DNA from: Martelella mediterranea DSM 17316
GTDB taxonomy: Bacteria > Pseudomonadota > Alphaproteobacteria > Rhizobiales > Rhizobiaceae
Direction of reading: 5' to 3'
Length of the DNA stretch: 64,000 nt
NCBI RefSeq assembly: GCF_002043005.1
Contig: NZ_CP020330.1
Coordinates: forward strand, 3,738,001 to 3,802,000
Shown in pieces: positions 48,576 to 49,711 of the stretch (the first letter of the stretch is position 1; each line of letters begins with the position of its first letter). Made by a program: the position numbers and the translations under genes. Under the pieces are notes generated by a model. The model saw nothing but the letters and a program-made list of their open reading frames with translations. It searched no databases and was not told the origin of the DNA.

Positions 48576-48590
48576 CGACTGTCTTTCTGG

Positions 48591-49529
48591 TCAAGCGTTT
48601 TGTTCGCGCCATGGATGATTGTCCCGGAGGATTGCGTTGAGGATGGTGATGAGTTTTCGTGCGACTGCGATGATGGCCACGAGTTTGGGTTTTCCATGAG
48701 CGACCAGACGATCCCTGAACGCCCTGAGGCTTGGATTGTGATGCGCTGCAACGAGGGCTCCCATGTAGAGCGCCGTTCTGACGCCGGCGCGTCCTCCGCC
48801 GATGAAGCTCTTTCCGCGCCATTGGCCGGATTGGCGCGTCCATGGAGCCAGTCCGACGAGAGCGGCGATCTGACGTCGGTCGAGCGTGCCGAGTTCCGGT
48901 AGCTCGGCGATCAGGGTGCGGGCGATCTGGTCACCGATACCGGGGACAGACTTCATGAGCTCGACCTTGGCCCGCCAATGGGGCGATCGGCGAATGCTGT
49001 CGTCAATGTCCTGATCGATGTCGGTGAGTTCCTTCTGCAGCGCCTTGAGGAGCCGGTTGATGCTCTTGGCCGTGCGCTGAGACGATCGCTTCAGGCGTTG
49101 GTTTTCCGCGCCGATCATGGCGATGATCTGCCGCCGGCGAGCGACGAGATCACCCAGGGCCTGGGTTTCGGCGTCCGGCAGCGGCCGCAGGGCGGGCCTT
49201 GTGGCCTCGGCGAAACGGGCGATCACGGCTGCATCGATCGGATCGGTCTTGGCCCTCTTGCCGAGCGCCTGGGCAAAGGCCCGCACCTGCGCCGGATTGA
49301 CGATGACAACCGGCAGTCCGGCCGAAGCCAGCGCCGCCGCAACCACGGTTTCGAAGCCGCCGGTGGCCTCAATGGCGATCCGTGCGGCCCCGAGCGGCTT
49401 CAGCCGCGCGATCAGGTCCTCCAGCCCGTCATGATCGCGCGGGACATGAAAAGGGGCCATCGAAGACGTGTTGGCGGCGACATCCAGACGATCCCTGGAG
49501 ACGTCGATACCGATGTTAAGAGCGTCCAT
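48591..49529 (-). CDS. IS110-family DEDD transposase/recombinase
   Basis: The 312-residue protein has the RuvC-like acidic residues at D9 (NIGIDVSRD), E54 (AIEATGGFE), and D96/D99 ([14 protein letters not shown]). A coiled-coil region lies near 130-180, and a C-terminal Transposase_20 domain holds [21 protein letters not shown] and [24 protein letters not shown]. Ser234 is the likely nucleophile. The start is the ATG at 49529; an in-frame extension to 49667 would run through the guide RNA and is rejected. The reading frame is intact, so the element may be active. Confidence 0.93.
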
Positions 49530-49680
49530 CCGATCCCATCCTTGCTTAAGCGGGCTTCGCTTCGAGCGGCCCAAGCGACTGTTCGGGTTCGATGGAACGG
49601 CGGACGAGGACCCTTGCTCACTCACGGGCTTGGTGTCCCTCAGGGTGACCGGTCTCCCGTCCGCCACCGCAACCTGCTCT
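49530..49680 (-). ncRNA. Candidate bridge RNA of the IS110-family element
   Basis: Read on the minus strand, two internal loops follow one another. In the first, TCACCCT (49642-49648) repeats the left target flank plus core, and GAGTGAG (49617-49623) is complementary to core plus right flank CTCACTC. A stem beginning GGACG (complement CGTCC near 49601-49606) encloses them. In the second, ACAGTCGCT (49574-49582) equals the element end plus core (48574-48582), and CAAG downstream can pair with CTTG at the other end. Order and polarity match the IS621 bridge RNA: target loop first, then donor loop. Confidence 0.78.
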
Positions 49681-49711
49681 ATACCACAAGCAGCGGATTC
49701 GAAGTTACAAG

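Follow-up and report, generated by a model that had tools for sequence, protein, structure and literature searches.

What decides where an insertion sequence lands, and can that choice be read from the element itself? The question is raised by a locus in the 64-kb window analysed here (the whole stretch of 64,000 nucleotides from the Martelella mediterranea DSM 17316 genome), in which a transposable element, referred to below as A, interrupts a palindromic repeat. An earlier note had proposed that the element belongs to the IS110 family and that the guides of a bridge RNA can be read in its upstream region. On the evidence of its sequence, we consider it almost certain that A is an IS110-group insertion sequence that would work by bridge-RNA-guided recombination, as IS621 does. 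The mechanism is a known one, and A is a well-documented further member of the IS110 elements with bridge RNAs; no report on this element was recognised in the open-licence literature, and none that joins IS110, RIME and Rhizobium. The value of this IS110 branch is that both target and donor guides are readable from sequence alone and can be checked against element-free sister genomes.

Recombinase and layout of the element

The recombinase of A carries two domains above Pfam cut-offs, PF01548 (DEDD_Tnp_IS110, RuvC-like, N-terminal) and PF02371 (Transposase_20, C-terminal), and scores 222.5 bits against NCBIfam NF033542 ('IS110 family RNA-guided transposase'; cut-off 140). It matches the solved chains of ISCro4 (E 6e-40) and IS621 (E 2e-39), and in an alignment read by eye D11, E60, D102, D105 and S241 of IS621 fall on identical residues; the IS621 numbering is that given in the available text of PMC11208158, and the offset of two residues was counted in the deposited chain. 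The predicted product is an IS110-family recombinase with conserved DEDD and serine residues, and its nearest named relatives, both at 87%, come from a Rhizobium MAG and Peteryoungia ipomoeae. The non-coding ends are unequal, with 182 nt upstream of the gene versus 15 nt past the stop codon (48576-48590). Because the longer non-coding end and the predicted RNA lie upstream of the recombinase gene, we place the element in the IS110 group and not the IS1111 group (Table 1).

Table 1 Features of element A, its predicted bridge RNA and its target repeat, in window coordinates
Feature	Position	Strand	Remarks
IS110-group insertion sequence	48576..49711	-	1136 bp including one core; CT core; at least 6 near-identical copies and element-free sister genomes
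DEDD recombinase (transposase), 312 aa	48591..49529	-	ATG at 49529
Left non-coding end with predicted bridge RNA gene	49530..49711	-	24-sequence alignment: conserved blocks, covarying stem
Core CT, right-end copy	48574..48575	-	AG on plus strand
Core CT, left-end copy	49710..49711	-	AG on plus strand
Right target flank CACTCCC in interrupted repeat	48567..48573	-	
Left target flank CATCACC in interrupted repeat	49712..49718	-	
Palindromic repeat, intact copy	3686..3860	+	uninterrupted member of the target family
Target-binding loop and stem	49599..49665	-	helices 1 and 2
Left target guide TCACC + core CT	49642..49648	-	matches left flank
Right target guide GAGTGAG	49617..49623	-	complementary to core CT + CACTC; 5/5 right-flank bases
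Putative target-loop handshake guide (C, A)	49615..49616	-	first base pairs donor position 7 (G); position by IS621 analogy
Donor-binding loop, limits approximate	49534..49597	-	conserved sequence; outer stem weakly supported
Left donor guide ACAGTCG + core CT	49574..49582	-	equals right end + core at 48574-48582
Right donor guide TTAAGCAAG	49541..49549	-	9 nt, discontiguous pairing with 7 donor bases CTTGTAA; IS621-like layout
Putative donor-loop handshake guide (G, A)	49539..49540	-	first base pairs target position 7 (C); position by IS621 analogy
-35-like TTGACC of predicted circle-junction promoter, right end	48589..48594	-	
-10-like TAACTT of predicted circle-junction promoter, left end	49702..49707	-	17 bases from -35 after end joining

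Copies, ends and element-free sites

The genome holds at least six copies of A at 99-100% identity, a lower bound given that 40 of 123 candidate places were scored, and these copies have differing outer flanks and one set of ends. Five of the six lie inside a palindromic repeat family that we take to be RIME, with flanks reading TCACC-CT-CACT or close variants: on the left CATCACC, CTTCACC (three copies) and CGCCACC, and on the right CACTCCC (four copies) and CACTGCC (one). The repeat is abundant (at least 44 genomic matches, from 40 scored places out of 111 candidates) and has two arm types, GCCCC..GGGGC and CCCCC..GGGGG, which differ between orthologous sister loci. The sixth copy, L004 (C1:1642632-1643764), is the only one outside the repeat; its right flank fits the guide at 5/5 bases and its left flank does not. 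In two sister loci the L004 flanks are about 0.9-1 kb apart with another gene between them, which suggests a later deletion on the left side; we rate this no less probable than guided insertion at an off-target site. Among plasmid records, relatives were seen at 60-80% identity only (best 70.5% among the best 20 of 44 records), and the left part of the element had no match in 12 other genomes of the genus, with at most 40 candidate places scored in each.

For five copies, the two flanks were joined at a single core, and the resulting sequences were aligned to 11 sister loci. Alignments crossed the junction at six of the 11, in two sister genomes, covering the sites of copies L001, L002, L003 and L006; at the L005 site no sister alignment reached the repeat. 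All six element-free junctions are continuous at the core, five with CT and one with GT (the L001 site in sister genome G008). Insertion at the dinucleotide core is scarless. The ends, which the earlier note had placed to within a base or two by joining the flanks into an intact repeat, are now fixed by the near-identical copies and by these orthologous junctions, and its expectation that an empty sister site would join at a CT core held at every crossing alignment apart from the one base of the GT case.

The repeat arms themselves vary between genomes. The sites orthologous to L003 in G008 and to L001 in G012 read CACTG, where our own copies have CACTC, and the site orthologous to L002 in G012 reads CACTC, where our copy has CACTG; the arms may convert between types. 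One may postulate that homologous recombination or gene conversion among the repeats was the main route by which the copies spread, such that their common flanks reflect copying and not targeting, and the 30 bases on the right side, identical in four copies, as well as these differences between own copies and orthologous sites, would fit such a scenario. The copies nevertheless differ in their outer sequences and, in part, in their left flanks; four of the sites retain the repeat in sister genomes that lack the element; and guides agree with flanks across 24 elements from many hosts (see below); we regard spread by repeat recombination as very improbable and guided insertion as the better reading.

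Guides in the upstream region

The three guide strings that had been proposed earlier are all present as quoted and occur one time each within the 182 nt upstream of the gene: TCACCCT and GAGTGAG for the target, and ACAGTCGCT for the left donor end. In 20,000 dinucleotide-preserving shuffles of this region, TCACCCT appeared in 152, GAGTGAG in 667 and ACAGTCGCT in 9, and no shuffle held all three in the order of the element. The left target guide is the weakest of the guides, matching 5/7 left-flank bases in addition to both core bases. Order and polarity of the guides had been proposed to be those of IS621, and the order is indeed shared with IS621. As read from the sequence, the upstream region has two predicted loops, one with guides for the target and one with guides for the donor, and the core is part of the pairing in each.

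The right donor guide had been judged weaker, with only CAAG found. This judgement does not stand: CAAG occurs three times in the upstream region and is no evidence alone, whereas a full 9-nt discontiguous guide, TTAAGCAAG, is present. In the register of IS621, two Us of this guide would pair with A14 and A13, two As would be flipped out, G would face T12, and CAAG would pair with CTTG. The IS621 right donor guide, as described in the available text of PMC11208160 and PMC11208158, is likewise built of nine RNA bases for seven donor bases: two are flipped out, and a G lies opposite a T. In IS621 there is also a handshake pairing, in which the first base after each right guide pairs with the pre-core base of the other DNA (PMC11208158, available text), and the putative handshake guides in Table 1 were placed by that analogy.

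The element ends also carry promoter-like motifs. TTGAC was present at all 30 right ends examined, several of them near-duplicates, and a hexamer beginning with TA lay 17 bases beyond it at 29 of the 30 joined ends, the exception being L073, which was parsed one base short. At the level of motifs, end joining would thus restore a promoter at the circle junction. A junction-restored promoter has been published for IS110 elements, and the IS621 RNA starts from such a promoter, according to the portions of those reports available.

Structure of the predicted bridge RNA

The bridge RNA region had no match when our 64-kb window was searched against Rfam at the gathering threshold, so the structural claim rests on an alignment of relatives. 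The only Rfam match in the window was an alphaproteobacterial ar14 sRNA (59245-59369, 99 bits). The alignment comprises 24 sequences: the window element, its sibling B (see below) and 22 of 39 relatives chosen by hand. RNAalifold recovered a target-loop stem with many compensatory changes. Run without knowledge of the guides, it further placed GCAAG of the right donor guide opposite the five bases at the start of the element, a pairing that is guide-donor complementarity and not RNA structure.

The two target-loop helices contain 13 pairs, of which 8 are changed on both sides, with 94.8 and 97.5% of cells paired. Over the whole named structure, 94.3% of cells are paired, and 46 cells show a two-sided change relative to a shuffled mean of 13.1 (0/500 shuffles as high); 45 of these 46 cells are in the two target-loop helices. 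When the partners were slid, two-sided-change cells fell from 46 to 12 or fewer, a comparison biased towards the tested structure, since this was taken largely from the same alignment. Counted as pairs, two-sided change is less distinctive (9 pairs versus a shuffled mean of 6.9; 62/500 shuffles reach 9), and the single-sequence fold is only mildly stabler than shuffles (z -1.87, 7/200). The outer stem of the donor loop (helix 4) has 88.1% of cells paired and one pair, in one cell, with a two-sided change; the RNAalifold helix 55-56/132-133 was omitted from the tested structure given its clash with this donor stem. The earlier note had staked its reading on a bridge-RNA structure in the fold: the target loop bears this out through conservation with compensatory changes, and the outer stem of the donor loop only weakly.

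The pairing of IS621 positions 131 and 159 (PMC11208158, available text) was considered as a further line of evidence and rejected: by our numbering it is U-A here, but position 131 is C in B, L056, L074, L082 and L085.

Target guides follow the flanks of relatives

Related loci were found by scanning named genomes, 39 in all, and 47 sequences (8 of our own and 39 relatives) were examined; 8 relatives were without a left end by the search pattern, such that 39 sequences remained. From these we assembled 24 non-redundant elements with both flanks for permutation. The 15 omitted were five A copies and L059, with guides already represented; L054, L058 and L084, without a right end; L064 and L073, without a left flank; and L065, L066, L069 and L071, with only four right-flank bases.

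The right target guide agreed with its own flank at 112 of 120 positions, relative to a permuted mean of 51.3 (sd 6.3; 0/20,000 permutations as high). Eighteen of the 24 elements are perfect over the five flank bases, with 13 different guide 5-mers in the set; the misfits are L057 and L079, each at 3/5. For the left target guide, 114 of 168 positions agreed (permuted mean 90.2, sd 4.3; 0/20,000 as high), with four registers allowed in the scoring of both real and permuted sets. The 24 elements are interrelated, and several have common guides, which raises the permuted mean. The search patterns imposed much of the donor-end sequence and the AG ending the right target guide and left the five scored flank bases free. 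That the flanks of relatives should track both target guides, as the earlier note had predicted, is thus borne out far beyond permutation; the exceptions include L004 and, outside the permutations, L066, the left flanks of which do not fit the guide.

Cores other than CT were found on the left in L047 (AT) and L082 (TT) and on the right in L079 (CC). The donor side is nearly invariant among relatives, a pattern partly built in by the search, and several of its departures are matched in the guides. In L060 (1319-1500) the right donor reads CTTCTAA, with G to C at position 11 and C to G in the guide (TTATTGAAG), a compensated change; in L073 and L078 donor position 14 changes from A to T together with U to A in the guide, and their left donor changes are also matched. 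The right ends of L061 and L081 and the left-guide core base in L060 and L078 are unmatched, and the guide pattern was not found in L080. As an aside, L052 (Chelativorans xinjiangense) has, by eye, a partial second left end directly upstream of 1321 that is broken inside the target loop, possibly an insertion into or next to the RNA gene of another copy.

These comparisons bear on a different explanation, in which recognition of the palindromic repeat, as sequence or as hairpin, lies with the recombinase protein, and the guide-like strings are ordinary conserved DNA. A parallel may be seen in ISRm22, an element that is not known to use an RNA guide. This IS4-family element of Sinorhizobium meliloti also inserts in repeats of the present kind (PMC1525189, available text). 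Against this, in the set of 24 elements, relatives whose proteins are similar have flanks that differ and that agree with the upstream region of the element concerned, and sibling B, in the same genome, has guides that match the different point of the repeat at which it lies; recognition by protein alone is in our estimate extremely improbable, and we retain guidance by RNA.

Occupied and unoccupied repeats

An exact search for CACC-NT-CACTSNC found 38 uninterrupted sites in the genome, all of them CACTG and none CACTC. A second search around CACCNTCACTCCCCCTTTCGGGGG, with two mismatches allowed, gave 29 sites in the own genome, none with CACTC, while CACTC made up 12/30 sites in G012 and 1/25 in G008 (counted from the listing). 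Four of the five repeat-borne A insertions have a CACTC right flank, and the contrast with unoccupied sites (Fisher one-sided p 4e-5) is to be read as that of five insertions only, one of them at CACTG, in a setting where CACTC is also scarce in the nearest sister and the repeat arms may convert between types. At the position that distinguishes CACTC from CACTG, the right target guide of A has the base pairing with C. Element A may have exhausted the best-matching sites in its own genome, and from the contrast between occupied and unoccupied repeats one can predict quantitatively which mismatch makes insertion less favourable.

A sibling element with other target guides

The same genome carries element B, 68% identical to A, with copies at L007 and beside L005; in L005, A and B occupy one repeat in opposite orientation. 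The two have identical ends, ACAGTCG-CT-TGTAACTT, an identical right donor guide, and left donor guides that are the same through ACAGTCGC. The target guides of B, CGGCATC and GGGAGAG, are unlike those of A, and its flanks, GCGACAT-CT-CTCCCCT, mark a different position within the repeat family that A uses, with guide matches of 5/7 on the left and 5/5 on the right.

With donor ends and right donor guides identical, and left donor guides shared to this extent, the complex of A or B could insert the circle of the other at its own target. Nevertheless, B-type flanks border the two B copies found and no A copy among the six, and the proteins and loop scaffolds of the two differ; we consider such cross-mobilisation possible, if unlikely. 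A broader proposal, that A and B kept one donor code as their target loops diverged within the repeat family, with mutual mobilisation of circles and target choice as a swappable module, strikes us as doubtful and is offered tentatively. In A and B, a single cell offers a natural experiment on modular retargeting.

Proposed mechanism and comparison with known systems

The recombinase would excise the element as a circle, and the joining of right to left end would restore the -35/-10 promoter, from which a bridge RNA of about 160-180 nt would be transcribed from the left end. The first RNA loop would pair with both strands of the repeat, the left guide with the bottom and the right guide with the top, with the CT core common to both, and the second loop would pair with the circle junction in the same manner. 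Strand exchange by the recombinase at the CT core would then insert the element into the repeat without a scar. What the sequences display directly is the ends and core, the four guide complementarities and their variation with flanks (in a few elements also with donor ends), the covarying target-loop stem, the element-free junctions and the promoter motif at the junction; transcription, complex formation, catalysis and present-day activity would follow from these by inference.

A close parallel is IS621, an IS110-group element of E. coli, whose donor ends also read ACAGT..CT-TGTA. As far as the available accounts of IS621 extend, the likeness covers the recombinase domains, catalytic residues, left-end bridge RNA, guide order and CT core, the 9-nt discontiguous right donor guide with G facing donor T12, the promoter across the circle junction, and a target in a palindromic repeat. 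The two differ in target sequence, target guides and host clade; on the same accounts, they also differ in the right target guide, which here reads 5 bases past the core, and at donor position 14, which is A with guide U here and T with guide A in IS621. By sequence, the closest solved structure is that of the ISCro4 transposase (9t56; E 6e-40 over residues 6-307), a comparison of the protein alone.

Bridge RNAs have been predicted in 85.7% of IS110s, and palindromic-repeat targets of IS110 elements have been described, in the portions of the literature available. ISRm19, an IS110-family element of Sinorhizobium meliloti likened here by its published description, is a further rhizobial case in palindromic repeats, with 4/4 copies in such repeats (PMC1525189, available text). 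The A/B pair resembles ISEc11 and ISXne4 of the IS1111 family, a pair in which the RNA segments that match the target vary along with the target according to the available text of PMC11187229, by which natural reprogramming is already published for the IS1111 group. Unlike those IS1111-type elements, A and B are of IS110 type and share one genome and one repeat family.
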